From positions 1 through 42,041 of the forward strand of contig NZ_CP090426.1 in assembly GCF_023518235.1 (NCBI RefSeq): 42,041 nucleotides of DNA, read 5' to 3'. The notes beneath the pieces are model-generated. The model made no database searches. It was not told the DNA's origin and saw only the letters and a list, made by a program, of their open reading frames with translations. The DNA is from Stenotrophomonas maltophilia. GTDB lineage: Bacteria > Pseudomonadota > Gammaproteobacteria > Xanthomonadales > Xanthomonadaceae. Positions 2,500 through 36,703 of the stretch are shown piece by piece. The number at the start of each line of letters is the position of its first letter. Position 1 is the first letter of the stretch. Both the position numbers and the translations under genes were made by a program.

Positions 2500-4980
2500 T
2501 CACGCCATCGGGCGGAAGTCCTGCAGGTACAAGCCGAAAGCATTCCACTGCCACGCCTCGGTGCCGTCGTAGACCAGCCGCACCGCGAACGTCGGCGCTG
2601 CCATCGACATTGGGACAGGCCCACCGGTGAGCGTGTCCGGGTCGACCTGGTATGCAGGGGTGAACGCCCCGCCGTTGGTCTGGTCGAAGCCGACCTGGAT
2701 GCCGACCTTGCCCCGCCCCACCACCTCGAAGCCATAGAGCATCTTCGTGACGCCTGCCGGGCCGAAGTCCAGCCACGGCCACTGGATGACGCCTTGGAAC
2801 GGGGTGAACACGCCCGGGGAAAGCTCGTCCCCGATCGCGCCGTCCACCATGCGGTAGATGCGGTTGGCCGAACGCAGATAGAGGGAGTCGCCTTGGATAG
2901 TCCACGTGTGGACCTCGAAAGGCAGCAGGTACCGCGACCAGGCGCCCACCTGCCCGATTTGGGTCATGGTGTAGACGAACACCTCTGTCTGGCCGTCCTT
3001 CGCGAACATCAGCCAGTACTGGCCGGCAGCCGGGAAGTACAGTCCGCGCGGCACCACTGAAGGCTGGGCCAGCCACGCCTGCACCAGCGGGTCGATCGGC
3101 ATGCCCACGTCGCCAGCCTGGAAGTTGGTGCTGCTGGCGGCGATACCCACGCTGCGCACGCCCTGACTGGCCAGGAACAACAGGTCGTTGCCGACGGCTG
3201 CGATGGCGCGGTGCTGGGTGCTACCCACCGGCAGCGCGTCGAGCAGCGACATGCTGGCCGGGTCTTCATCGATCTGCCACAGCTGGAATGCCTCGGCGTT
3301 GAAGACGGTCAGGTTGCCGCGATAGAGCCCCATCGCTGCCACTGGGTTCGCGCCGTAGTTCTGCAGGCCAGTGGGGAGGAACCCTGCATCGTTGGCGCTA
3401 CTCCAGTCCTTCGGCGCCACGGTTGCGCTGTAGGGCACGGTGTCGCCATCGCCGGCGAAGACCTTCGAGGCACCGATCAGCACCACCTTGCTGTTCGGGC
3501 AGTTCGGGTCCTCTACCCGCCGGCTCACGGCCTGCCAGGTCACGCTGCCGTCCACCACGGTGCCGCCGACGTTGGTTGGCCATGCCGGTTCGCTGCTGCC
3601 GCTGACGTACAGCGGAGACGCAGTCCACGTCACGCGGGTAATCGCCATCGCCTCCCAGGTCACGCCGCCATCGACCACACGCTTGCCGAGGATGTTCGGC
3701 CAGGCCGGTTCAGTGGCGCCGGTGTGCGCCACCACGTCCTGCACCGCGCGGTAGACAAGGCCCGCAGGCAGGCCGTTCACCGCGCCGCTGACGGTCAGGT
3801 TGTCAGCGCCGGTCACGTGATCATGGTCACCCACCGACCACAGTGCGATGACGCCGCGGGCGTACGAAGCACCTGCAGGCTTCGGTGACACCGCAGTGGA
3901 GATCGCCGCATCGCTGCTGACGATGTTCCCCTGCGTGTAGGAGATCATCACGTCGTCCTTGTCGTACCACCGGACCTCCACCCAGCCGCGCGTCGCGCCA
4001 GCCTTGGCCGGTCCCTGCTCGATCAGGCAGTTCGCGGTGAGTGATCCGCCATCTGCGACGACGAAGCGCGCCTGGTTCACGGCGGCGCCATCGCTGATTC
4101 GCCCGGGCAGCTCCAGCTTGCCCGCAACGATGTGCGCACCGCCTTCCAGATCCCAGCCGGTGTTGCCGTCGGTGAAGTTGCCGTTGATTGGAGCCGTCGC
4201 CGTCGGGCTGGGCAGGTTCACCGGCCTGATCAGATCGCCCTTGGCCGCCTGCTTGGCAGCAGTCCACTGCGGAACCGAGCCGCCGGCCGTGCCGCTGCCA
4301 ACGTTCCCCAACGGGTTCTCCAGTGGCACGTCCTCGTTCACGGTGCCGCCGGCTGTTGCCGGCCACTGCGGTTCGGTGTCGCCGGAGCGCGCGTTGGCAC
4401 CGCTCACCGAGCTGACCGTGTACTTGAAGCCGTTGTTGGCCGACGGCACCACCACGTTACCCACCGTGCGTGCTGCGTAGGCCTCCCATGTTGCGTGGCC
4501 ACCACCGGTGCCCACCAGCGAATAGGCCAGGCCGTTGGGCGTTGTCGGGCTTACCAGCGCACCGGGCAGGTACGTGGTGTTAGGTGCCCAGGGTTTCCCC
4601 TCTTCCAGCCAGTAGTGATAGGTCGACCCATCGGAGAACTCGGCCACCACGTACAGGAATCCCAGGTACGGCAGCGAGTAGTGGATCTCCTTCAGAGTCG
4701 CCGCGCCGTTGCTCGGATGCCTCAGCACCACCACCGAGTAGCCGGGACCCGCCGGCATCACCTGGTCGGCATACACCACGAACGCTCCCTTGAAGGAGGT
4801 CAGTCCGATCGTGCCGGGCGGCAGGTCCAGCTGGATGCGCGCGGCCTGGCGCATACGGATGGTGCGGGCTGCGGTCACGTAGCCGTTGAGCAGGTCGAAC
4901 AGCGCATCCTCCGACGCGCCGCCCTTGTCGCGCAGGCGGGTGATGCCGGCCTTTACGGCGGTCAGGTAGGTGGCGCGCAT
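2500..4980 (-). CDS. Tail tubular protein B-like nozzle protein (826 aa)
   Basis: Size, position directly after an adaptor and overall beta-rich composition match the gp12-type (tail tubular B) nozzle of podoviruses, which closes the tail tube distally. The N-terminal 130 residues (helix, then SFKGAFVVYADQV, YSVVVLRHPSN, YVVAEFSDGSTYHYWL) and the C-terminal 300 residues (PYSATVAPKDW, YRGNLTVFNAEAFQLWQID, LPVGSTQHRAIAAVGNDLLF) are the conserved-looking parts. Between them are repeated TEPxWP...GGTVxDGxVTW modules near residues 198, 415 and 462, probably inserted carbohydrate-binding-like pieces. ATG 4980 overlaps the adaptor stop as TGATG. Confidence 0.85.
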   Translation of the reverse strand: MRATYLTAVKAGITRLRDKGGASEDALFDLLNGYVTAARTIRMRQAARIQLDLPPGTIGLTSFKGAFVVYADQVMPAGPGYSVVVLRHPSNGAATLKEIHYSLPYLGFLYVVAEFSDGSTYHYWLEEGKPWAPNTTYLPGALVSPTTPNGLAYSLVGTGGGHATWEAYAARTVGNVVVPSANNGFKYTVSSVSGANARSGDTEPQWPATAGGTVNEDVPLENPLGNVGSGTAGGSVPQWTAAKQAAKGDLIRPVNLPSPTATAPINGNFTDGNTGWDLEGGAHIVAGKLELPGRISDGAAVNQARFVVADGGSLTANCLIEQGPAKAGATRGWVEVRWYDKDDVMISYTQGNIVSSDAAISTAVSPKPAGASYARGVIALWSVGDHDHVTGADNLTVSGAVNGLPAGLVYRAVQDVVAHTGATEPAWPNILGKRVVDGGVTWEAMAITRVTWTASPLYVSGSSEPAWPTNVGGTVVDGSVTWQAVSRRVEDPNCPNSKVVLIGASKVFAGDGDTVPYSATVAPKDWSSANDAGFLPTGLQNYGANPVAAMGLYRGNLTVFNAEAFQLWQIDEDPASMSLLDALPVGSTQHRAIAAVGNDLLFLASQGVRSVGIAASSTNFQAGDVGMPIDPLVQAWLAQPSVVPRGLYFPAAGQYWLMFAKDGQTEVFVYTMTQIGQVGAWSRYLLPFEVHTWTIQGDSLYLRSANRIYRMVDGAIGDELSPGVFTPFQGVIQWPWLDFGPAGVTKMLYGFEVVGRGKVGIQVGFDQTNGGAFTPAYQVDPDTLTGGPVPMSMAAPTFAVRLVYDGTEAWQWNAFGLYLQDFRPMA

Positions 4981-6995: not shown

Positions 6996-7306
6996 TACTG
7001 CACGCCCTCCAGGGTGATCGGCGCCGTTGCGGCGGTGCCGGTGCGGATGAAGTCCGGCAGGTCGGCGATCTCGACCACCGGCGCCAGGTTGGCGGCTGCG
7101 CTCAGCAGGGTGAACCAGCCCGAACTGCCAGCGGCCGGGGTGCTGCCGTCGGCCGGCGCTTCATGGCCCTGCAGCAGAACGCCGGTGGTCACGGTGGTGT
7201 TGTCACCCAGGTTGGCCAGGCCTTCGCGGCCCCAGCCGCCCAGCAGCGGGGTCTTGTTGAGCTTGACGATGGTGCCCCCGGTCGGGAGCGTCTTCACGTT
7301 CGGCAT
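6995..7306 (-). CDS. Small head-region protein, possible decoration protein (103 aa)
   Basis: The sequence is Gly/Thr/Ala-rich with little charge (for example PLLGGWGREGLANLGDN and TTVTTGVLLQGHEAPADGS), as in small beta-structured capsid decoration or head-associated proteins. No family motif is recognised. It directly follows the major capsid gene and overlaps the next gene (TAATG), so expression is coupled to the head operon. The revised call is position-based; a head-fibre or joining protein would fit equally well. Confidence 0.7.
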   Translation of the reverse strand: MPNVKTLPTGGTIVKLNKTPLLGGWGREGLANLGDNTTVTTGVLLQGHEAPADGSTPAAGSSGWFTLLSAAANLAPVVEIADLPDFIRTGTAATAPITLEGVQ

Positions 7307-7352
7307 TTCGTTCTCCTGCCGGCGAGGAATGCCCCGCCGGCGTTGCGTGGGG

Positions 7353-8414
7353 TCAGGCGATCGAGAAGACCGCGTTGCTGTTGCCCTTCTTCAGCGTCAG
7401 GCCGTAGTGCGCCGTCATGCCGAAGTAGTGGGTGTGGCGGTCGTACACGCGCGGCGGCGTGCGGCGGACCATCCAGCGGCCCTTCACCGGGCGCAGCTTC
7501 AGCGACTTGCTGTTGAGGAAGTAGCCGCGCTTCTTCCACGGCACCGCGATGGCGCCCAGCAGATCGTCCAGGGCGTCGAAGGTCGGATCCCACACCACCG
7601 GCACGCCCTTGAAGGCGAGCGCCTTGGTGGACGGGTCCAGGGTGACGCCGCCGGTGGCCGAAGTGCCCATGGTGATCTGGCGGCTCATGACCTTCAGCGC
7701 GTCCGCCTGGATGGCGTCGTACATGTCCGAGCCGACCACGATGAAGTCGGGTGCACCCAACTTTCCGTAGGCGATGGACTTGCGCCACAGAGTTTCCAGG
7801 TGCGAGATCAGGTTGCCGGCGGTGGCGGTGCTGATGCCGATGTCGGCCCAATTGCGCCAGTACGGGGTGGCCGCGCGATCGATGCCGCCGACGGTACCCA
7901 CGGTCGGGGTAGTGCTGACCAGCGCGTCCAGACCCGGAACAGCCTTCGGGTTGGTGGCGCCGTCCAGGTGCACTTCGATGTCCCAGTTCTCCTGGAAACC
8001 ATCCTTCAGGGTGGTCCAGTTCTCCTGGAGGATGTTGACGATCTGGATCTTCTCGGCCTCGGTCATGACCGCATTGCGGTCATCGGTGAGGATGATGCCG
8101 TTGTTGGCCAGCTCGGTTTCGTTGAGGGTGAAGCCGTCGAAGGCCTCGTATGCCTGGAACGGCGCCAGACGCACGGTCTTCTTGCGGTTGTAGGTGACCT
8201 GGTCGTCACCGGTGTAGTTCTGGTAGTTCGAGTCGTTCGTGTAGCGGATCTTCTCGTTGAAGACGCCGTTGCCGAAGATCGAATCCTGGCGGTTCTGGAT
8301 CAGCCAGTTGGCCAGCGGTCGCTGGGTGGTGAACTGGTCGATGGGGTCGTTGTTGGCGTAGGACTGCATCTGGGTATTGGCACCAGACAGCAGCTGTGCG
8401 GCGGTAAGCGGCAT
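7353..8414 (-). CDS. Major capsid protein (353 aa)
   Basis: The length, the position after the scaffold and the pattern of an N-terminal arm, a spine helix (TEAEKIQIVNILQENWTTL), beta-hinge segments and a P-domain (DFIVVGSDMYDAIQADALK, FKGVPVVWDPTFD) point to an HK97-fold coat protein. The C-terminal YDRHTHYFGMTAHYGLTLKKGNS is typical of podovirus coats that end in a beta strand. The start is ATG 8414, with a GAGG ribosome binding site eight bases upstream. That site is the 3' strand of a long hairpin (8423-8479), which suggests controlled translation. Confidence 0.9.
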   Translation of the reverse strand: MPLTAAQLLSGANTQMQSYANNDPIDQFTTQRPLANWLIQNRQDSIFGNGVFNEKIRYTNDSNYQNYTGDDQVTYNRKKTVRLAPFQAYEAFDGFTLNETELANNGIILTDDRNAVMTEAEKIQIVNILQENWTTLKDGFQENWDIEVHLDGATNPKAVPGLDALVSTTPTVGTVGGIDRAATPYWRNWADIGISTATAGNLISHLETLWRKSIAYGKLGAPDFIVVGSDMYDAIQADALKVMSRQITMGTSATGGVTLDPSTKALAFKGVPVVWDPTFDALDDLLGAIAVPWKKRGYFLNSKSLKLRPVKGRWMVRRTPPRVYDRHTHYFGMTAHYGLTLKKGNSNAVFSIA

Positions 8415-8422
8415 AGGAGTGG

Positions 8423-8479
8423 CCTCGGAAGGAAAGATGGCCAGCCCGCGAGGGCTGAGGGTCTTTCCGCGTTCCGAGG
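8423..8479 (-). promoter_or_regulatory. Leader hairpin that sequesters the capsid gene ribosome binding site
   Basis: The minus-strand leader can form a three-part stem: 8472-8479 with 8423-8430 (8 bp), 8462-8468 with 8431-8437 (7 bp) and 8452-8457 with 8442-8447 (6 bp), separated by a 3-base bulge and a 4x4 internal loop and capped by four bases. The GAGG that must serve as Shine-Dalgarno for ATG 8414 lies inside the basal helix. There is no T tract after it, so a terminator is less likely than translational control or an RNA stability element. Confidence 0.6.
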
Positions 8480-8650
8480 GCGCGAGGCTCGTTACAGCGC
8501 TACCGGCGGCGAACCCGGCTTACGTCACACGCGGGGCGGCTGGTGTGCCGCTCGGTGGTCAAGATGCCAGCGCTGGTGGGCGCGTCAATGGGCGCTGGCG
8601 GTACACTCGCCGAGCCGGGGCAAGCCGGCTACACCAAAAGGGGCAATGGA

Positions 8651-9139
8651 ATGAGCTTTCCCGTAACCGCGTTCTTCGTGGCTGAAGCATCGGAAGTGCC
8701 AGCAGGACGCTTCTACCGCAACAACGGCCAGTGGTTCATGTCCGTCGACGCCAACCAAGGCCAAGGCGGAGGCCTTTCGGCTATCTGCCTGACAGGCGAT
8801 CAAACCGGCGTGTTCTCCCCCCGAGAGAACGGAACCGTCACCTACGTGGGGGGCGAGTTTCAGGTGGAGATCCGGGTGGCCGGAATCGATGCGACCGTGG
8901 ACCGGCAAGAGGGGTACTGGAACGCTTCGATCATCATCGGCGAAGAGTTCGCCATCTACGCCCAGCGCGGCAACGGCGACGCAGTTATCTCGCTCGACGG
9001 GAAAATGAGTAGGGGCAACGGGCTGTCTGGATGCCGCCGGCGATTCACTGCGTGGTCGGCATGGCTGATCCGGCCGGACGGTCGACAGATCGGGGAAGAG
9101 CCACTTTTCAGTGTGGTTTCGATTCCGAAGGTCGATTAA
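8651..9139 (+). CDS. Antisense moron-like gene of unknown function (162 aa)
   Basis: This plus-strand gene sits inside the minus-strand head operon, between the capsid and scaffold genes. ATG 8651 has a purine-rich AAAAGGGG about seven bases upstream. The protein is beta-rich (RFYRNNGQWFMSVDANQG, FQVEIRVAGIDATVDR, YWNASIIIGEEFAIYAQRG) and has no signal peptide or enzyme motif. It ends against a bidirectional hairpin terminator. An own leader, opposite strand and own terminator describe a moron, a gene added to the phage and often expressed in the lysogen. Its function is unknown. Confidence 0.65.
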   Translation: MSFPVTAFFVAEASEVPAGRFYRNNGQWFMSVDANQGQGGGLSAICLTGDQTGVFSPRENGTVTYVGGEFQVEIRVAGIDATVDRQEGYWNASIIIGEEFAIYAQRGNGDAVISLDGKMSRGNGLSGCRRRFTAWSAWLIRPDGRQIGEEPLFSVVSIPKVD

Positions 9140-9140
9140 A

Positions 9141-9166
9141 GAGAAAGGGGCCGGAAGGCCCCTTCT
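9141..9166. terminator. Bidirectional terminator between moron and scaffold gene
   Basis: GGGGCC (9147-9152) pairs with GGCCCC (9157-9162) around a GGAA loop, and the flanking GAGAAA/TTCTC extends the stem to about 11 bp with one bulge. The minus-strand side continues into TTTCTCTTT, the plus-strand side into TTCTCTGTT. It separates the convergent genes ending at 9139 (+) and 9170 (-) and would also limit read-through from scaffold into the capsid gene. Confidence 0.65.
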
Positions 9167-9169
9167 CTG

Positions 9170-10255
9170 TTACAGCCCGCGTGCCCTGGCCGCCTGGACG
9201 CCGATGTCGAACGCGTTCTCGGGCGTGATCTGCGGCGCCACCGGCGCGGCGGAGTTCGCCCGGATCGGGTTCGGTGCGCTGCGGGCGACAGGTGCCGCTG
9301 CAGCTGGCGCGGCAACCGCGGTGGCCGGCAGGGCCAGGTAAGCGCGATGGATCTCGGTCTGCCACTGCGCCGGCGGCAGCGTGCGCTGGATGATGTCGAT
9401 CGTCGGCGCCAGCAGCGCCAGCTTCTGATCGAACAGGGCATCACCAGCGCGCAGATGCGTCCCCAGCGCCTGCACCGATGCGATCCCCTGCTGGTACTGC
9501 AGATCCTGCTGCTGGCGATCCTGCTGCGCCTGGGTGTGGTTCTGCTGCAGCTGGCCCGTCTGCCGGTGCTGGGCCAGTTCCAACGCCACGTCGCGGGTGA
9601 TGTCACCAGAGGTGACGCGGCCGGCCAGGTCCGGGTGGGCGCTCAGCGGATCGAAGCCAGGCGCCTCGCGGCCCAGCTGTTGGCCCAGCCACTGCAGCTC
9701 GCCCTGCATGCGCTCGTAGGCGTCTGCCATGCGCTTTGGGTCGCCCGAGTTGATGTCGGACAGGTAACGCAGTGCGCCCCCGAACTGCTCCGGCGTGGCC
9801 CCGGTGCTCTGGACCGTTTCCTCCCACTGGCTGACCCGCTCGCGGGCGTCGCGGGCCTGAGTGTGCAGCTCCTGGAAGCGCTCGGCCGCGCGTTCCTTCA
9901 GGCCCAGCTGCTTTACCTCGTCCTCCACGGTCGGCTGCTGCGGATGTGCGGGCTGTGCCGGCGGCTGCTCATTGGCTGGCGGTGCGTTCGGCTCGGCGGC
10001 GGCCGGCGTGGCCGGTGTGCCGTCCTGTGGCTGCTGGCCATCCGCTGCCGCTGGGGCATCACCGGGCAGTAGGTCCTCGCGGGCCTCCTGCTCGCGTGCG
10101 GCTTCAACGCCAGCCGAGAATGCATCCAGCTCAGCAGCAGCGGGCTGCGGCGTATCGCCGCCGTCGGCAACCGGCGGTGCGCCAGTGTCGGCCGGCTGGA
10201 CGTCGGTCGGGGTGGTGTCCGGCGTGGCCGGGGTGTTCGGATCTTCGATGTGCAT
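9170..10255 (-). CDS. Putative capsid scaffolding protein (361 aa)
   Basis: The protein has a Pro/Ala/Gln-rich disordered N-terminal third, a charged helical centre (LGLKERAAERFQELHTQARDA) and a helical C-terminal half rich in Gln, typical of phage scaffolds, which assemble the procapsid and then leave it. It lies between portal and major capsid genes, the usual scaffold position. A short motif occurs near both ends: AFSAGVEAAR at about 45-54 and AFDIGVQAAR at about 349-358. The C-terminal copy could be the coat-binding helix. ATG 10255 is the natural start before a 41-base gap. Identification rests on position and composition. Confidence 0.75.
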   Translation of the reverse strand: MHIEDPNTPATPDTTPTDVQPADTGAPPVADGGDTPQPAAAELDAFSAGVEAAREQEAREDLLPGDAPAAADGQQPQDGTPATPAAAEPNAPPANEQPPAQPAHPQQPTVEDEVKQLGLKERAAERFQELHTQARDARERVSQWEETVQSTGATPEQFGGALRYLSDINSGDPKRMADAYERMQGELQWLGQQLGREAPGFDPLSAHPDLAGRVTSGDITRDVALELAQHRQTGQLQQNHTQAQQDRQQQDLQYQQGIASVQALGTHLRAGDALFDQKLALLAPTIDIIQRTLPPAQWQTEIHRAYLALPATAVAAPAAAAPVARSAPNPIRANSAAPVAPQITPENAFDIGVQAARARGL

Positions 10256-10296
10256 GGTGGAACCTCAGTTGGCGGCGGGTGGCGTGGCTCGGGCGA

Positions 10297-10647
10297 TCAG
10301 CCCAGGCCAGGGTGATCGGGGAGCTGGACGTCTTCATCGCGCAGCACATACCAGTCATCGGCCAAGCAGTCGTTGACGCTGGGCACCCACGTGCTGACCG
10401 TGTCGTTGACGTTCTTGATGGCGAAGTAGGCGTTGTACGGGACCATCGAGCCTTCGCCGAAGTGCGCCTTTGCCGCGCCCGTCTGCACGGCATAGCTTGC
10501 CGGCGGGACCAGGTAGACGAACATGCCTTTGCCGTTCCAGCCATCACGCGCCAGGCGGCGGCCCTTCTTCAGGTGGTCCAGTGCACCGCCGAAATCGAGG
10601 CCGAAGGTGAATTCGGATGCGGGAAGACTGGTGCGTTGTTCATTCAT
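10297..10647 (-). CDS. tad2: Tad2-like (DUF2829) protein, candidate anti-Thoeris sponge (116 aa)
   Basis: The sequence carries the hallmark order of the DUF2829 family: FGGALDHLKKG (19-29), RDGWNGK (34-40), a hydrophobic strand (MFVYLVP), then a C-terminal TWVPSVNDCLADDW (86-99). Members of this family were identified as Tad2, which protects phages from Thoeris defence by binding the cyclic ADP-ribose isomer made by ThsB; some Tad2 proteins also bind CBASS cyclic nucleotides. Length is normal. CAGGAG lies seven bases before ATG 10647. The gene sits between portal and scaffold in the late operon. Family assignment is by motif recognition; activity in this phage is inferred. Confidence 0.8.
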   Translation of the reverse strand: MNEQRTSLPASEFTFGLDFGGALDHLKKGRRLARDGWNGKGMFVYLVPPASYAVQTGAAKAHFGEGSMVPYNAYFAIKNVNDTVSTWVPSVNDCLADDWYVLRDEDVQLPDHPGLG

Positions 10648-10662
10648 GGTCTGCTCCTGTGG

Positions 10663-12708
10663 TCAGAGAGGCGGGGCGACAACGCCGCCCGCTGGTGCTG
10701 CGGTGGGTGCCGGCGCTTCGGCCGGCGGAAGGGCTTGCATCGGGTCAGCAGGCGGCATGCCGGGCATGGCTGGCGCGTCGATAACGGCGCCAGGCGCAAC
10801 CTGCGGCACCTGCGGAATAAAGGTGTAGGCGTCGATCGATGTGTCGCCGGTGCGCTCGATGGTTTCGACCATCAGCTGCTCCAGGCTGTTGGCAATGTCG
10901 AACGGCGTTGCGCCGCGCATCTGACCGATGGTGACGACGGCCTCCTGCAGCTGCGGCAGGATCGCGCCCCACTGCTGCCGGCGCAGGTTGGACGCCGGGC
11001 GGCCCGAGCTGCCCGCGCGAATGTCGACGTTCAGCAGCGCGGTGACCAGCTCCGGCAGGGTCGCGTTGAACCACAGCGCCTCTGGCCCGGCAATGTCGCT
11101 CACCTCTTCCGGCGACAGGCCGGCGGGTGACATGGCTTCCTCGGCGGTGTACTGCGCGACCTCGCCCAGCACATCGTCCAGGCTGTCGCGGCTGTAGCCC
11201 AGGCGCGACTCGGTTCCCTGCTGCTGGATGTCGGCCTCGGTGGCCGTCTTCGCGGTCTGGATGCTGGAGGACAGCGCCTCCTGGATGCCCCAGATCAGTT
11301 CCAGTTCGGCGCGGATGGGCGCGGTGTCGTACAGCGCGGCGTCGATCTGGTTGTACTGGATGGGGAACAGCACGCTGGTGGCGGGCAAGCCCTTCAGGTC
11401 CAAGCCGACCATCTCTCCGATGCCAGCGCCCTCCAGCTTCGCTGCGTCGTCCGGCTCGACAGCACCACGGTCGAAGCCCAGCTTCGGGATGGCGCGACGG
11501 CGATGCTCCCGATAGTTCGTGCGGGTGCGGTTGTATTCGTCCAGCAGGGCGCGTGAGCGGTCCACCAGCGACTGCGGATGCCGCTCCCCATCTACCCACA
11601 GCGGCGCCCACTGGAAGAAGGGGTAGAAGCGCGTACTGCGCTGGTCAGGGGTATACGGCTGGCGCAGGTTGCGGCGCAGGCCGGGCGTGATGGTGTGCAC
11701 CAGGTTGGTGGTCAGGTCCCACACCTCCCAGACGCACAGGAAGCGTGGGCCGGCATCACTGCCCTGCCCCGCTGCCGTGGCGCTGCGGAACACCTCGGCG
11801 TCGCTGTCGCTCACCACGCCGTCGGCCGGGGCGAACCCATCCTCGCGCGCGCGGCTCTCGGGCTGCACGTGGTAGTAGGCCTCGGCCTTCCCCAGATCGT
11901 CGCGCAGCTCCGGGAACGTGGCCTGCGCCTTGTCGTACGGCATGAAGGTGCGGTGGGCAATCCACGGCGAGATGGCGTAGTCCTTCAGCGTGGCCACGTC
12001 CATGGAGACCTGGATGTCTTCGCCGCGCACGAAGTCGAAGACCAGGCCGTTGTAGATGATGTGCTCGACCTGGGATTCCAGCGTCTGCATCTGCTGTTCG
12101 TACTGAGACTTCAGCAGGTCCGGGTTGGCGGCGTTTCCCTCGGCCAGCTCGCTTTCCATCAGGGCCAGGGATTCGAGCTTGGCGCGCAGGTCGGCGATGC
12201 GCTGATCGGTGGTAGGGTCGCGCTCGGTCTCGCGGTGCCATGCCGCCTTGATCCAGCCGATGCCGATGCTGAGGCCCGAACGCACCATGGCGTCGGCAGC
12301 GTGCTTCAGGCGACCACGCTTCCACAGCGAGGCAATGACGATCTCCAGCGTGCGGCCGACCTGCTTGGCCAGCTTCACCCGGCTGGAGCCGACCGACTCG
12401 GCGGGCTGCACGGCGGGCTCAGGGTCGCGCGCGTACAGGAACGACGTCAGCAGGTTCACGTAGGTGCCGGCGATCGGCACGCTCACGTCATAGACCGGAT
12501 CGACCTGGTTGCGGCAGTAGCGACGGTCCAGCGCGTAGCCCTTCCGGGCGTGCTTGTCGAACTCGCGCGACTCCTTGATGCGTTTGTGCCAGTTGGCTAC
12601 GTCTGCCTCTTCCTGTGCCAGCGCCTGGGCCTGCGCCTCGCGCTCTGCGTCGGCTGCCTGCTCGGCCGCCAGTGCGTCGTTGAAGCTGTCGGCGGTGGGC
12701 ATGGTCAC
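10663..12708 (-). CDS. Portal protein (681 aa)
   Basis: The length, position immediately after the large terminase and features such as DKHARKGYALDRRYCRNQVDPVYD, DVSVPIAGTYVNLLTSFLYARDP and a long C-terminal helix (IRAELELIWGIQEALSSS...ATEADIQQQ) match large podovirus portal proteins, which form the dodecameric DNA gate. A coiled-coil insertion lies at about residues 170-220. The Pro/Ala-rich C-terminal 50 residues are probably disordered. The frame opens with GTG 12708, which overlaps the terminase stop (GTGA); ATG 12702 two codons later is an equally good start. Confidence 0.88.
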   Translation of the reverse strand: MTMPTADSFNDALAAEQAADAEREAQAQALAQEEADVANWHKRIKESREFDKHARKGYALDRRYCRNQVDPVYDVSVPIAGTYVNLLTSFLYARDPEPAVQPAESVGSSRVKLAKQVGRTLEIVIASLWKRGRLKHAADAMVRSGLSIGIGWIKAAWHRETERDPTTDQRIADLRAKLESLALMESELAEGNAANPDLLKSQYEQQMQTLESQVEHIIYNGLVFDFVRGEDIQVSMDVATLKDYAISPWIAHRTFMPYDKAQATFPELRDDLGKAEAYYHVQPESRAREDGFAPADGVVSDSDAEVFRSATAAGQGSDAGPRFLCVWEVWDLTTNLVHTITPGLRRNLRQPYTPDQRSTRFYPFFQWAPLWVDGERHPQSLVDRSRALLDEYNRTRTNYREHRRRAIPKLGFDRGAVEPDDAAKLEGAGIGEMVGLDLKGLPATSVLFPIQYNQIDAALYDTAPIRAELELIWGIQEALSSSIQTAKTATEADIQQQGTESRLGYSRDSLDDVLGEVAQYTAEEAMSPAGLSPEEVSDIAGPEALWFNATLPELVTALLNVDIRAGSSGRPASNLRRQQWGAILPQLQEAVVTIGQMRGATPFDIANSLEQLMVETIERTGDTSIDAYTFIPQVPQVAPGAVIDAPAMPGMPPADPMQALPPAEAPAPTAAPAGGVVAPPL

Positions 12709-14060
12709 AGGGCGGATCTCCTACGTTCGGCGAGTGAGGGCTGGTCGGAGTGCTCCAACCACTGGCGGCTATGGGGCACCAGCACCCGAGGCCGTTCAAT
12801 GGACGGTCGGTCGCGCGCGCTCACTGCGGCGGGGAATTTGCTGTGGATGAAGTAGCCCAGTGCGTCCGGCGGATGGTCGAAACCGGTCGTCTTGTCGGGC
12901 AGCCCGTTGGCGTCGTAAGGCTGTTTCTCCAGCGCCTCGGTGAGCTTCGGGCAGTTACGCACATTCACCAGGAAGCGACGGCTGCGCTTGGCGTTGAGGA
13001 TCATGGCGTTGACGCTTACCACCCGCGAGCGGATGCGCGGGTTGGCCGCCGGCACCACGATGGTCATCGACCTTTCGGCGCGGATCAGGCCCAGGTCGGA
13101 CGTGCTGGCGTTGTTGGTGTGCTGGCTGTCGCCGCTGGCGTCCGGGTAGATCGTCATGCGGTGACCGCCGTACTGGTCCCGCAGCGCCTGGATCATCGCC
13201 GGTGTGTCGCGGATGCCGGTCAGCTCGGCCAGCGCCATCGGCTCGCCGTCGCGGATCACGCAGATGATGGCCGTCATGTTCAGCACGTTGAAGTCCATGC
13301 CGATGTGCAGCGCCTCGCCGTCCTGGATCTCGGCCGTCGTGTTGTTGGCGGTGCGGGAGAACGCCGGATACACAGACCCGGTGGTCAGGTTGACGAACAT
13401 CCCATCGATGTAGGCCTGCACCAGCTGCGGCGGGTAGCTCTCGAACAGCGACTGGATGTAGTCGTCGGGCAGGTTGGCCTCGTTGTCGTAGGTGCTGGCG
13501 TGCACCAGGCCGTACAGCGCCTGCAGCTTCGGGTTCTCGCTGGGCAGCTGGTGGAACTGCTCGTAGACGAAGTTGAACCCCTCGGGGGTGGTCGTCACAT
13601 CGATGCCGTTCTGCAGGCCGTCGGCCTTCACGCGCAGGCGGGCGATGATCTTGCGCCAGGCGTCCTGGGCCTTCCGCTTCTTCAGGGTGTCGATCTCATC
13701 GACCAGGGCCTTGCCGACCTTGAAGCCGACGATGCTGGCCGGGTTGTCCATCGACCGGCAGATGATCGTGCCGCGGTACTGGCGGCCTGAGTACAGGTGG
13801 GCCTCCTTGTTCGACTCGACAATGCGCGCGCGCAGCCCCCAGTCGAAGGCCACTTCCTCGATGGTCGGATAGAAGATGTCGCGGATCTGCGGATAGCTGG
13901 GCGCGAAGTAGCCGGCCGGCACGCGCGGATGCGTCCACACGTGGCTGCACAGCGAGCCACAGCCAACCCAGGTCTTGCCCGAGCCGAACCCACCCACGAA
14001 GGCGCGAAACTTGTGCGGCAGCTGCAGGAACGCGGCCTGCGGTTCGTTAAGGGTTGGCAT
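12705..14060 (-). CDS. terL: Terminase large subunit (451 aa)
   Basis: This is the DNA-packaging motor. The ATPase domain has Walker A GGFGSGKT (23-30) and a Walker B ALVDEID (118-124) followed by coupling residues (TTTPEGFNFVY). The nuclease domain shows acidic residues in IGMDFNV, YPDASGD and DHPPDALGYF, as in RNase H-fold terminase nucleases. ATG 14060 lies inside the 3' end of the small-subunit gene (14-base overlap), so the two subunits are translationally coupled. The C-terminal 45 residues are basic and Pro-rich, possibly portal-contacting. Confidence 0.92.
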   Translation of the reverse strand: MPTLNEPQAAFLQLPHKFRAFVGGFGSGKTWVGCGSLCSHVWTHPRVPAGYFAPSYPQIRDIFYPTIEEVAFDWGLRARIVESNKEAHLYSGRQYRGTIICRSMDNPASIVGFKVGKALVDEIDTLKKRKAQDAWRKIIARLRVKADGLQNGIDVTTTPEGFNFVYEQFHQLPSENPKLQALYGLVHASTYDNEANLPDDYIQSLFESYPPQLVQAYIDGMFVNLTTGSVYPAFSRTANNTTAEIQDGEALHIGMDFNVLNMTAIICVIRDGEPMALAELTGIRDTPAMIQALRDQYGGHRMTIYPDASGDSQHTNNASTSDLGLIRAERSMTIVVPAANPRIRSRVVSVNAMILNAKRSRRFLVNVRNCPKLTEALEKQPYDANGLPDKTTGFDHPPDALGYFIHSKFPAAVSARDRPSIERPRVLVPHSRQWLEHSDQPSLAERRRSAL

Positions 14061-14565
14061 TCCGGCGGCGCCCGCTGACCACGTTCACCGTGACCGCGAC
14101 CGGTGCTGGTGTATCGCCGTCATCCTCGCCCTCTGGCTTGTCGCGCCAGCTGCCTGGCCTGCGGTTCTTCAGCCAGAAGATCGCTGCGGTGGTGTCCGGG
14201 GGGTACTGCTTGTCGGTCGAGGTGACCACCACCTCCCCTTCCACCACCCGGACGTCGTCCTCTCGGCAGCGGTAGCCGGTTGCCCGCTCGAACAGGGCGC
14301 GCTCCACCCGCAGGTCAGCCTCGGCCTTACTCAGCTTTAGGGCTTCCGAAAACTCGGGGTGCTTGATCTTCCACAGGTTGACCGTGGACAGGGCTACGCC
14401 GAAGAACTCCGCCACCTCCGGGTCGGTGCAGCCCCTACGGCCCAGCAGTGCGGCCTGGCGCGTGAACTCCGCGCGGTACTTGGTGGGCCTGCCCCCCTTC
14501 GAAGGGGATTTTGCGGCCTTCTTGGCCGGTTTGGCCTTAGGCGCTTCTGGCTTCTTGCGGGGCAT
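14047..14565 (-). CDS. terS: Terminase small subunit (172 aa)
   Basis: A Lys/Pro/Ala-rich N-terminal tail precedes a helix-turn-helix (FTRQAALLGRRGCTDPEVAEFFGVALSTVNLW and following, about residues 34-68) with a helical oligomerisation segment (ALKLSKAEADLRVERALFERATGY) and a C-terminal strand region. This is the DNA-recognition subunit that selects the packaging site. ATG 14565 is preferred over upstream TTG 14586 because AGGGGG lies at good spacing. A 26-bp dyad about 107 bp upstream is a candidate recognition site. Confidence 0.85.
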   Translation of the reverse strand: MPRKKPEAPKAKPAKKAAKSPSKGGRPTKYRAEFTRQAALLGRRGCTDPEVAEFFGVALSTVNLWKIKHPEFSEALKLSKAEADLRVERALFERATGYRCREDDVRVVEGEVVVTSTDKQYPPDTTAAIFWLKNRRPGSWRDKPEGEDDGDTPAPVAVTVNVVSGRRRNANP

Positions 14566-14759
14566 CAGCTCGCCCCCTGCGGGCAAGGCTGCCGATTCCC
14601 GAGGGCATGAACGTCACCATGGAGAGGCAAGTCCCCATGGCCGCCGCAACGCGGCATTCCCCGTGTCGGCTGCACGCTGTTGTCGACACCTGCGTGCTGG
14701 TCGTCCCGGTACTCGCCCCGGGTGGCTTCCTGACTGGATGGCGTCTGGCGGTCGCTCAT
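14565..14759 (-). CDS. Doubtful small reading frame upstream of terS (64 aa)
   Basis: This frame starts at ATG 14759 and stops in a TGATG overlap with terS, which is how real genes are joined in this operon. However, it lacks a Shine-Dalgarno sequence, its composition (many His, Gly, Arg, Pro, Cys) is unlike the neighbours, and the stretch contains a long dyad better explained as a packaging or regulatory site. It may be non-coding. Confidence 0.25.
   Translation of the reverse strand: MSDRQTPSSQEATRGEYRDDQHAGVDNSVQPTRGMPRCGGHGDLPLHGDVHALGNRQPCPQGAS
14672..14697. other. 26-bp imperfect palindrome, candidate packaging (cos/pac) or regulatory site
   Basis: Outer arms GCACGC (14672-14677) and GCGTGC (14692-14697) are centred exactly on the inner 8-bp palindrome TGTCGACA (14681-14688). 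In all, 11 of 13 base pairs are symmetric. The site lies about 107 bp upstream of the small terminase start, where cos or pac sites are commonly found. Confidence 0.4.
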
Positions 14760-14799
14760 GCTGCTGTTATCCCAGCCTGAGCATTCCGATCAATGGCGA

Positions 14800-15213
14800 T
14801 CAGGCAGCAGCGAACAATTCCAATTGCATCGGCCAGCGGATGGGCTCTGGCTGCTCCCAGCCGTAGTGCTCCCGCAGGTCCTCGGCGATCTGCTCCGGGC
14901 TGGGGAAACTGACCCGTTTGCCGTCGGCGGTGTCGGCGCCGTAGAGCCCGAACAGCCAGTCGGGGTGCTCCCGCAACATGCCCTCCCCTGCTGCCGAGCC
15001 GATGCGCAGGGCGAAGATGCAGCAGGCAGGGTCGCCGAAGACATAGCTACCCTCGCCCTGGGCGTTGCGGATGTCGCGCACGCGGGAAAGCACCTTCCTG
15101 GCCACCACCAGCACGTCCGCCTCGCTGGCCACGGCAAGGCTGACCGCTGACCGGCGGAACTGCCGGTGCGGTGCCGCCTGCCTGGTCGTCTGGTTGTCGG
15201 TCTTCTTGCGCAT
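14800..15213 (-). CDS. Unknown protein at the early/late boundary (137 aa)
   Basis: ATG 15213 follows GGGGGAA at suitable spacing. The sequence contains a helical N-terminal region (VASEADVLVVARKVLSRVRDIRNA), a GEGSYVFGDPACCIFALRIG segment and a C-terminal EQIAEDLREHYGWEQPEPI. No domain is recognised. It sits between the resolvase and terminase genes, the place where lambdoid phages encode the late antiterminator Q, but it shows no zinc ribbon or Q-like HTH, so that role cannot be claimed. Confidence 0.7.
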   Translation of the reverse strand: MRKKTDNQTTRQAAPHRQFRRSAVSLAVASEADVLVVARKVLSRVRDIRNAQGEGSYVFGDPACCIFALRIGSAAGEGMLREHPDWLFGLYGADTADGKRVSFPSPEQIAEDLREHYGWEQPEPIRWPMQLELFAAA

Positions 15214-28941: not shown

Positions 28942-30039
28942 ATGGCACCGAGGCAACGAAGCAAGAGCCGCCAGGGATGGCCGGCCAATCTGTACCCCAA
29001 CCGGGACGGGTTCAAATACCGGCACCCGGTCACGAAGAAAGAGACGTGGATGGGCACCGACCAGGCCCGCGCGTTCGCCGCGGCCAAGAAGCTCAACGCG
29101 CTGCTGATCCCCACCGACGACCTGGTGGCCCGGGTCATCACGCCAGGCGAGACGGTGGCTGATGCGATTGTGGTGTTCCGCCGCGATGACGTGCCTGGCA
29201 GGAAGTGGGCGTCGAAGACGGCCGAGGTCTACGAAAGCGTGATCCGACGCATCGAGGCCGGGCTGGGTTCGAAGGCGGTGGCCGACGTGACGGTGAAGGT
29301 GTGCGCCACCTTCATCCGCGAAGTGACCGAATCCGACCGCGCGCGCCAGCAGTTCCGGCTGGTGCTGGGCTGGATACTGGCCTGCGCCGTGGAAGAAGGC
29401 TGGATAGATACCAACCCTGCGCTGGCGACTCGCCGATTCCAGCACGAGCGGAAGCGCGTGCGCCTGACCCTCGACGTATACCGCGCGATATGGGACCAGG
29501 CAGCACCCTGGCTGCGCAACGCCATGGACCTGTCGCTGGTGACGCTGCTGCGCCGCGAGGACGTGGTTACGGTGAAGTTCGCCGACATGCGCGACGGCCA
29601 CCTGTGGGTGGTGCCGTCGAAAACCGAGGGCTCGACGAACGTTCGACTACAGATCGCTGTGGCTGGCCCGCTGCTCGACCTGCTGGCCCGGTGCCGCGAT
29701 GACGTGGTTTCGCCGTTCGTGATCCACCGCCTGCCGGAAAAGGCCAGGCCCAGCGACAAGCGCGCGAAGGACCGCGCGCACCACACGCAGGTGTTGCCCG
29801 AGCAGCTGTCGCGTGCATTCGCAAAGGCGCGCGATGCTGCCGGCGTGGGTGGCGATGCGCCGCCAACCTTCCATGAGATCCGCAGCCTGGGCGGCGCGCT
29901 GCTGCGCGATGCGGGCTGGACCACGGAACAGATTCAAGCGCTGATGGGGCACGGCAACGCGTCGATGACTGAGCATTACCTGGGTGGCCATGAAGCGCCG
30001 TGGCAGCCGGTCACCACGGGTATCGCGCTGCCTCGATAG
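28942..30039 (+). CDS. int: Tyrosine-recombinase integrase (365 aa)
   Basis: N-terminal arm-binding region (GFKYRHPVTKKETWMGTDQA, residues 23-42), a core-binding domain (TVADAIVVFRRDD to about 170) and a catalytic domain with Arg205 (LLRREDVV), Lys227 (PSKTEG), His311-x-x-Arg314 (FHEIRSLGG), His337 (LMGHGNASM) and the nucleophile Tyr346 (TEHYLGG). Full length. It recombines attP with a chromosomal tRNA-Pro gene. Its stop codon lies inside the first of three tandem arm-type repeats, and attP is 83 bp downstream. Confidence 0.95.
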   Translation: MAPRQRSKSRQGWPANLYPNRDGFKYRHPVTKKETWMGTDQARAFAAAKKLNALLIPTDDLVARVITPGETVADAIVVFRRDDVPGRKWASKTAEVYESVIRRIEAGLGSKAVADVTVKVCATFIREVTESDRARQQFRLVLGWILACAVEEGWIDTNPALATRRFQHERKRVRLTLDVYRAIWDQAAPWLRNAMDLSLVTLLRREDVVTVKFADMRDGHLWVVPSKTEGSTNVRLQIAVAGPLLDLLARCRDDVVSPFVIHRLPEKARPSDKRAKDRAHHTQVLPEQLSRAFAKARDAAGVGGDAPPTFHEIRSLGGALLRDAGWTTEQIQALMGHGNASMTEHYLGGHEAPWQPVTTGIALPR

Positions 30040-30121: not shown

Positions 30122-30169
30122 TGGTCGGGACGGCCGGATTCGAACCGACGACCCTCTGCCCCCCAGGCA
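30122..30169 (-). other. attP: attP core: 3' half of tRNA-Pro(GGG)
   Basis: Read on the minus strand, these 48 bases give the end of the anticodon 5' stem, a GGG anticodon loop, the 3' stem, the T arm with GGTTCGAATCC and an acceptor strand ending in CCA. The 5' half of a tRNA does not follow, so this is not a tRNA gene. Temperate phages carry such a segment to rebuild the tRNA on integration. Exact crossover bases within the segment cannot be told. Confidence 0.88.
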
Positions 30170-36177: not shown

Positions 36178-36317
36178 GGCCGCTGTCCTGCTGGCCGCTG
36201 TGCATATGCCATCAGCGGGGCTCCAGGCTTCACGCACAGCACCGCCATGGGATCGCTCTTGATGTCGCGGGGATCACGCGGCATCCCGGTGTAGGGGTTG
36301 TGGGTGATGGGCTTCAT
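36171..36317 (-). CDS. Small protein in the lysis cassette (48 aa)
   Basis: ATG 36317 forms an ATGA overlap with the Acb2-like gene and the stop overlaps the Rz-like start by seven bases. The peptide (KPITHNPYTGMPRDPRDIKSD, then MAVLCVKPGAPLMAY) is Pro-rich and largely unstructured. Translation is supported only by the tight fit between neighbours. Confidence 0.5.
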   Translation of the reverse strand: MKPITHNPYTGMPRDPRDIKSDPMAVLCVKPGAPLMAYAQRPAGQRPC

Positions 36318-36703
36318 GCCGCTGGACCTGCTTCAGCGACCTCGTACTCAGCACGGGCGCGATTGACACGGGACAGCAGCGCGTTCCAGTAGCCGACCAT
36401 GCACTTGCCCTGCGCATCCAGATCGGCGCGCTCGTCTTCCGACAGGCTGGAGTAGATGTCGGTGCCCTGGAACTTGCCGAGCTTGCTGATCTTGTCGTTC
36501 AGCTGCTCCAGTTCGCCGACCATGCGCTGCACATGCGGCGGCAGATGACCGACGTGGCCGATCGGCAGGTAGGCCGCTTCGAACACATCCTTGGGCGACC
36601 AGCTGATGTAGCCGTCGGCGTACTTCACCGAGTATCCGTCCGCGCCGTCCTTCTGTGCGGGCCATGCCTCGATGATCTTCGAACCGATGTAGTGCTGGGT
36701 CAT
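36314..36703 (-). CDS. acb2: Acb2-like protein, candidate anti-CBASS cyclic-nucleotide sponge (129 aa)
   Basis: Residues 56-118 (PHVQRMVGELEQLNDKISKL, GKF, SSLSEDERADLDAQGKCMVGYW, LLSRVNRA) have the helix-loop-helix pattern of the phage family that includes Acb2 and T4 Vs.4 (also named crAss001_48-related), which bind cyclic di- and trinucleotides and block CBASS. Residues 1-55 (HYIGSKIIEAWPAQKDG, GYSVKYADGYISWSPKDVF) are an extra domain seen in longer phage members. AAGGAGG precedes ATG 36703. It is embedded in the lysis cassette between holin and spanin genes. Family call by motif memory; activity is inferred. Confidence 0.72.
   Translation of the reverse strand: MTQHYIGSKIIEAWPAQKDGADGYSVKYADGYISWSPKDVFEAAYLPIGHVGHLPPHVQRMVGELEQLNDKISKLGKFQGTDIYSSLSEDERADLDAQGKCMVGYWNALLSRVNRARAEYEVAEAGPAA

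Follow-up and report, generated by a model that had tools for sequence, protein, structure and literature searches.

A Tad2-like protein encoded in the head operon

The question raised by this locus is why a gene for an immune-signal 'sponge' should lie among the genes that build a phage head. The DNA analysed is a 42,041-bp contig from Stenotrophomonas maltophilia (NZ_CP090426.1; the whole stretch is called 'the window' hereafter), and the gene is a tad2-like one that a sequence-only reading had placed between portal and scaffold genes and taken for an anti-Thoeris candidate. We read the two gaps on either side of the scaffold gene, that is, the portal-scaffold gap and the gap between the scaffold gene and the gene of the major head (capsid) protein (MCP), as a slot of the late head operon in which sponge genes are exchanged by recombination. 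The open reading frame (ORF) was found exactly as predicted, and its strand, which had been left unnamed, is minus (Table 1).

Membership in the Tad2-like family, proposed from the order of three motifs, was borne out. FGGALDHLKKG, RDGWNGKGMF and SVNDCLADDW follow one another in that order, and in a search with hidden Markov models (HMMs) the Pfam model PF11195 (Tad2-like) matched the protein at E = 9.8e-24 (84.1 bits, for a curated cut-off of 25). Five PHROG families were matched, the best being 872 and 1048, both without assigned function, and an NCBIfam scan of the protein returned no match. A protein search with the window Tad2 gave 1,379 of 1,390 candidates at E <= 1e-10, the query included, and R34, W37, N38, G39, W87, D93, D98 and W99 were among the 12 invariant columns of an alignment of 40 relatives. 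The Tad2 of an S. maltophilia contig (L014; relatives are designated by such locus numbers) is 88% identical. Selection on the tad2 domain is purifying: among eight domain genes compared, the dN/dS ratio was 0.03 to 0.12 across the seven pairs that contain the window.

The predicted monomer also has the Tad2 fold. In the AlphaFold2 model, pLDDT was at least 90 at 85 of the 116 residues, the N-terminal 15 and C-terminal 13 residues being mostly of low confidence. The best Foldseek match was ModTad2 with hisADPR (9eib, E = 3.2e-11); all 24 matches at E <= 0.001 were Tad2 chains, and the next one followed at E = 0.62.

Many Tad2 relatives (L015 to L101) are longer, having an extra domain at the N terminus and, in some cases, a crAss001_48 part as well; in L047, for example, a YVGTK-like N-terminal domain is fused to Tad2. 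Read by eye, L031 and L094 appear to join a Tad2 and an Acb4-family domain in a single protein.

An empty site and its alternative occupants

Relatives were collected with two MCP queries, that of the window (best 80 of 106) and that of L014 (31 loci), and 88 distinct slots, the window's included, were considered. Three relatives (L102, L103 and L111) are nearly identical to the window in the terminase large subunit (TerL, 99%), the portal protein (97 to 98%) and the scaffold protein (93 to 94%), and have no tad2. The distance from portal stop to scaffold ATG is 24 bp in these three loci and 407 bp in the window. In blastn, the match between the window and the three stops at locus position 4340 and resumes at 4721, with flanks 95 to 96% and 89 to 91% identical.

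This empty site bears on whether the protein could be a virion or assembly component, with a Tad2 fold put to structural use in the head or neck. Such a role is very improbable, given that the gene is missing beside near-identical TerL, portal and scaffold genes, that unrelated sponge families take the same place in relatives, and that the fold matches up to E = 0.001 were Tad2 chains without exception. Of packaging, about which the sequence-only reading had asked, the only sign was a weak match in fold to a single neck protein.

In relatives, tad2 itself is found in the portal-scaffold gap (L014, L022 to L026, L029 and duplicates) or in the scaffold-MCP gap (L027, L028 and L030). A Pfam scan of ten slot ORFs from relatives returned the Acb2/Tad1 hairpin PF24729 three times (L106, L116, L186), PF13876 twice (L180, L157), crAss001_48 twice (L157, L206) and Tad2 once (L014); it was empty for three of the ten. 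Against solved chains, the L116 protein matched p26 (8h2j and 8ixz, best E = 9.8e-20), 8h2j being Acb2 in PMC11722364, and the L180 protein matched Acb4 weakly (9e4w, E = 0.0033). The same source places Acb4 in PF13876 and states that it is not structurally homologous to Acb2, Tad1 or Tad2. These sponges, directed against the cyclic-oligonucleotide-based anti-phage signalling system (CBASS), have the head-operon gap and the kind of action in common with the window Tad2, but belong to other Pfam families and do not share its ancestry.

Seven local HMMs were built from slot genes, so that counts made with them favour the slots: 31 of the 88 held a Tad2, Acb2 or Acb4-family gene, 40 any of the seven families and 48 none, and within the loci 32 of 33 sponge matches lay inside one of the two gaps. 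A Pfam scan of whole contigs repeats the test without slot-built models. It covered 50 contigs of at least 33 kb drawn from the 88 slots (the window is not one of the 50), of whose 2.08 Mb the two gaps make up 1.86%. Seven Tad2, seven Acb2 and 11 Acb4-family matches were found, 24 of these 25 in a gap; the lone exception, of the Acb4 family, is on the L029 contig. Six contigs (L159, L161 to L163, L165, L169) had first been dropped by hand for low MCP identity, though L171 and L173 had been kept, which are no nearer to it than these. Once checked, the six contributed a single Acb2 match (L161), upstream of the portal gene and outside the gaps, no Acb4-family match in a search whose control was silent, and no Tad2 match with our own HMM, the only one applied. 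The controls of our own Acb4 and Acb2 searches were silent as well. The count of 24 in 25 is therefore replaced by 24 of 26 sponge matches in 56 contigs, with 17 of the 19 Acb2 and Acb4-family matches in gaps, and 23 of the 56 contigs having at least one sponge match there. Binomial probabilities for such counts, which take no account of common descent, were set aside.

The slot is also filled by uncharacterised families, namely a YVGTK domain with crAss001_48, a KKPVVIEA domain and 'CL5'; a PDB search with a YVGTK-crAss001_48 slot protein gave just two matches, at E near 0.9. An alternative is that small accessory genes ('morons') of any kind settle in these gaps of a long operon, sponges being over-represented only through their frequency among small phage genes, and late expression carrying no particular significance. 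We hold this to be rather unlikely. The 48 slots with none of the seven families speak for it, as do the uncharacterised genes, an antisense gene and the large unrelated inserts of L164 and L168 to L170, but it does not account well for the near confinement of Acb2 and Acb4-family matches to the gaps, nor for the 8 of 13 unrelated isolate regions (see below) in which sponges likewise adjoin head, packaging or lysis genes. As in the P2/P4 hotspots described in PMC9122126, immunity-related genes are exchanged at a fixed site. Unlike phage variable-gene hotspots and anti-defence islands, the slot lies amid portal, scaffold and capsid genes, and its content of known family is mostly signal sponges.

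Exchange of cassettes between lineages

Eleven phages are connected by single linkage at an MCP identity of at least 95% (some member pairs fall below that value). Their slots held Tad2 in five cases (accompanied by KKPV or CL5 in three), Acb2 in one, the Acb4 family in two, YVGTK-crAss001_48 in one and none of the seven families in two. A single C-terminal tail recurs on Tad2, Acb4-family, YVGTK-crAss001_48 and KKPV genes, and the LPDHPGLG tail of the window Tad2 is also present on the Acb4-family gene of L187. The synonymous divergence (dS) of tad2 is discordant with portal identity: between the window and L024 it is 0.33, with portals 37% identical, and between the window and L027 it is 0.91, with portals 61 to 63% identical. 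Mixed cassettes within one MCP group, common tails and this discordance lead us to conclude that sponge cassettes pass from one phage lineage to another; purifying selection preserves them.

The Tad2 subgroup and its probable ligand

The closest solved chains by sequence were those of ModTad2 (9eib/8v3e, 91 bits). Identity is 51% to ModTad2 over 85 aligned positions, 39% to SPO1 Tad2 and 38% to the Hgm and Spt Tad2 proteins. In a tree that has long branches, and for which the tool warned of an unsettled bootstrap, the window protein and ModTad2 form a clade that leaves SPO1, Hgm and Spt Tad2 outside (UFBoot/SH-aLRT 99/96). The variable loop of the window Tad2 has 15 residues, close to the 13 of both ModTad2 and SPO1; it is longer in Spt (24) and Hgm (30). 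Sequence, tree and Foldseek rank point to the ModTad2 subgroup, whose ligand is histidine-ADP-ribose (His-ADPR) according to the PDB title and to PMC13299392, rather than to the SPO1 (gcADPR) or Hgm/Spt types.

ModTad2, or MoTad2, comes from a Myroides odoratus prophage and has the same fold as the window Tad2, which differs from it in having its own terminal extensions and a head-operon position in a temperate Stenotrophomonas phage. SPO1 Tad2 (8sme-8smg) shares the Pfam family, the fold and the W-N-G and D-W motifs with the window Tad2, but stands outside the ModTad2 clade, and the tad2 of SPO1L3 lies among small hypothetical genes. HgmTad2/AcrIIA7 and SptTad2 (8kbi-8kbm, 8wjd) likewise have family and fold in common with the window protein; its loop is 9 to 15 residues shorter than theirs. 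A review ties their long loop to the binding of cyclic dinucleotides, so the length difference makes such binding less likely here.

Among 91 genomes of the host genus, the type II Thoeris domain ThsA_Macro (PF20016) was found in three, one of these being a short fragment, and ThsB_TIR (PF08937) adjoins it in two (one of the two pairs was inspected). The type I ThsA domain STALD was found in none, which is weak evidence since the search control was silent. With ModTad2 as the nearest relative and type II, not type I, Thoeris found in the genus, the signal most likely targeted is His-ADPR, that of type II Thoeris. The sequence-only reading was right as to the Tad2-like family; the SPO1 type with gcADPR is disfavoured by sequence, tree and Foldseek alike, and the binding of CBASS nucleotides, which it had also raised, appears less likely on account of the loop. 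In our estimate it is unlikely that this Tad2 sponge counters type I Thoeris or CBASS by binding gcADPR or cyclic dinucleotides instead: ModTad2 is closest by sequence and tree and comes first in Foldseek, the loop tied to dinucleotide binding is shorter than in Spt and Hgm Tad2, and STALD did not turn up, for the little that this says.

Layout of the head operon and timing of expression

The placement of tad2 between portal and scaffold genes in the head operon stood up, although the portal match is weak. The 'scaffold' name is positional, since the gene has no family match; its relatives are flanked by portal and major head protein. The tad2 ATG follows the portal stop by 15 nt, and the tad2 stop comes 41 nt before the scaffold gene.

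Table 1. Coordinates of the window features discussed in the text
Feature	Coordinates	Strand	Remarks
tad2-like gene	10297..10647	-	116 aa, ATG start; domain at about residues 16-103
tad2-carrying segment, 380 bp	10281..10660		own Shine-Dalgarno-like AGGAG; missing from near-identical relatives
AGGAG ahead of tad2 ATG	10654..10658	-	Shine-Dalgarno-like; sequence reading
Portal gene	10663..12708	-	phrog_12082, weak (E 6.9e-7); no Pfam match
Putative scaffold gene	9170..10255	-	no Pfam or PHROG match; named by position only
Terminator-like hairpin, 3' of scaffold gene	9144..9165	-	9-bp stem, T-rich tail
Antisense gene in scaffold-MCP gap	8651..9139	+	162 codons; kept in close relatives; no Pfam match
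MCP gene	7353..8414	-	phrog_9953, E 1.6e-31
TerL gene	12705..14060	-	PF03237, E 3.3e-31
Terminase small subunit (TerS) gene	14047..14586	-	phrog_309, E 9.8e-53
YVGTK-like domain + crAss001_48 gene	36314..36703	-	PF21825; near lysis genes
Integrase gene	28942..30039	+	PF00589, phrog_1
Attachment core, 48 bp	30122..30169		common to both prophage ends; within host tRNA-Pro(GGG) gene

From its position in the head operon, tad2 is most likely made late, alongside the portal, scaffold and capsid proteins. That an internal promoter drives tad2 early or during lysogeny seems distinctly unlikely with only 15 nt between the portal stop and the tad2 ATG. A scan of 7300 to 14800 confined to sigma-70-like promoters found no site, in itself weak evidence, since shuffled sequences gave only 0.6; other promoter types, which that scan does not cover, leave some room for early tad2, as does the fact that other sponges act early, at about 15 min for the SPO1 activity.

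The explanation that we favour, and consider probable as a whole, is the following. A Tad2 of the ModTad2 subgroup would bind and sequester His-ADPR, so that the macro-domain effector ThsA would stay inactive. The gene is a facultative cassette in a slot filled across the phage family by Tad2, Acb2 or Acb4-family sponges or by small uncharacterised genes, and its late synthesis would suit signals whose production begins as capsid protein appears. Staphylococcal and streptococcal Thoeris are reported in PMC12578639 to be activated by the major capsid protein; a sponge expressed from the capsid operon would then be made as the trigger appears. If Thoeris senses capsid here as in staphylococci, the sponge would arrive at the moment of need.

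Several observations weigh against this explanation. As to the ligand, it is predicted from a relative only 51% identical, and ligands vary within the sponge family; the tree has the long branches and unsettled bootstrap already mentioned, and in VIA-align SptTad2 (with cGG) ranks equal to ModTad2. Few genomes of the host-genus sample have type II Thoeris, and the lysogen genome has no match to ThsB_TIR, ThsA_Macro, STALD or SMODS, the four models searched, so that the target of Tad2 would be expected in other strains. As to timing, the capsid sensing of PMC12578639 concerns Thoeris whose product is described as cyclic ADP-ribose, not type II. That sponges are not necessarily late is seen in SPO1, whose 3'3'-cGAMP-binding activity, traced to Acb4 in PMC11722364, appears early (about 15 min). 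The terminator-like hairpin that follows the scaffold gene may put tad2 and the MCP gene on different transcripts and so uncouple them, although the three terminator-like sites seen in the region, for 4.0 expected in shuffled sequences, amount to nothing statistically. As to the slot, 2 of the 26 sponge matches lie outside the gaps and 33 of the 56 contigs have none inside.

A broader proposal, which we make tentatively and would not yet bet on, is that the phage family keeps a dedicated, exchanged site in its head operon, from which the sponge would be made together with the capsid proteins that trigger TIR and CD-NTase sensors. If so, the YVGTK-crAss001_48, KKPVVIEA and 'CL5' proteins would be candidate new sponges or other counter-defence proteins, and the similar placement of sponges, by terminase, portal, capsid or lysis genes, in isolates unrelated to this family could reflect a general design rule. 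The slot would be a place to find new counter-defence genes from position alone, and close relatives with empty, Tad2, Acb2 and Acb4-family slots would constitute a natural experiment. In the literature, of which subscription journals were thinly covered, we came across no account of sponges being exchanged within a head operon; Hadary (on the functional diversity of sponges) and Tal (Science 2026), both cited in PMC13232231, could contain one.

Sponge genes in unrelated isolate phages

Thirteen isolate regions were hand-picked from the lists of Tad2 and Acb2 matches. In eight of them the sponge gene shares its strand with genes for terminase, portal, capsid or lysis and is no more than about 2 kb away from these. 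The orders are Tad2, Acb2, TerS, TerL in PB119; Tad2, one gene, TerS, TerL in QDWS595; gp49_66, Tad2, lysozyme and onward to terminase in Y3; lysozyme, three genes, Tad2, 'gene 66' in AP1; and TerL, Acb2, one gene, portal in PS6. Acb2 stands one gene after the capsid gene in SS2019XII and AV002, an alike pair that may be kin, and in Skulduggery the sponge lies 1.9 kb after TerL. In the remaining five (JK004, Tlacuache, Ro157c2YLVW, Rollin and SPO1L3) it is elsewhere or its position is ambiguous. Sponges thus lie on the late side often enough for the window to be no exception. Whether the protein acts late, as the sequence-only reading had asked, is a real question, but the location is no lone oddity, since the gap is an exchange site and these eight regions are similar.

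The phage and its integration

The window is the complete contig C4 of a 4.92-Mb genome in four contigs, and the identical 42,041 bp also occur as the rotated contig C3 and, integrated, in C1. An integrase gene, a helix-turn-helix repressor-like gene and the integrated copy mark the window as a temperate phage. It exists in integrated form and, unless the additional contigs arose during assembly, in excised form too. Contig C2 (42,189 bp) gave no blastn match to the window at E 1e-20. Among 50,697 phage records, megablast with 15 kb of the window returned no match, and tblastn with its MCP gave only three remote ones, below 30% identity; no close isolate is therefore among these records.

Other genes in and around the slot

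The antisense gene of the scaffold-MCP gap has counterparts of 33 to 97% protein identity in L102, L103, L104, L106 to L108, L111 and L153. The version in L102 and L103 is only 33% identical, with DNA flanks 89 to 95% identical. A two-domain gene of the YVGTK-crAss001_48 kind occupies the head-operon slot in some relatives and lies near the lysis genes in the window. In 20 of the 88 distinct slots (for instance L153, L184, L199 and L203) the portal-scaffold gap has, alone or beside sponge cassettes, a mini-ORF whose end reads (R/H)HPLTLAIWRVFATWSK or nearly so; none was seen in the window. In the remote relatives L164 and L168 to L170, larger inserts in the scaffold-MCP gap carry, as read by eye, methyltransferase-like and glycosyltransferase-like genes.
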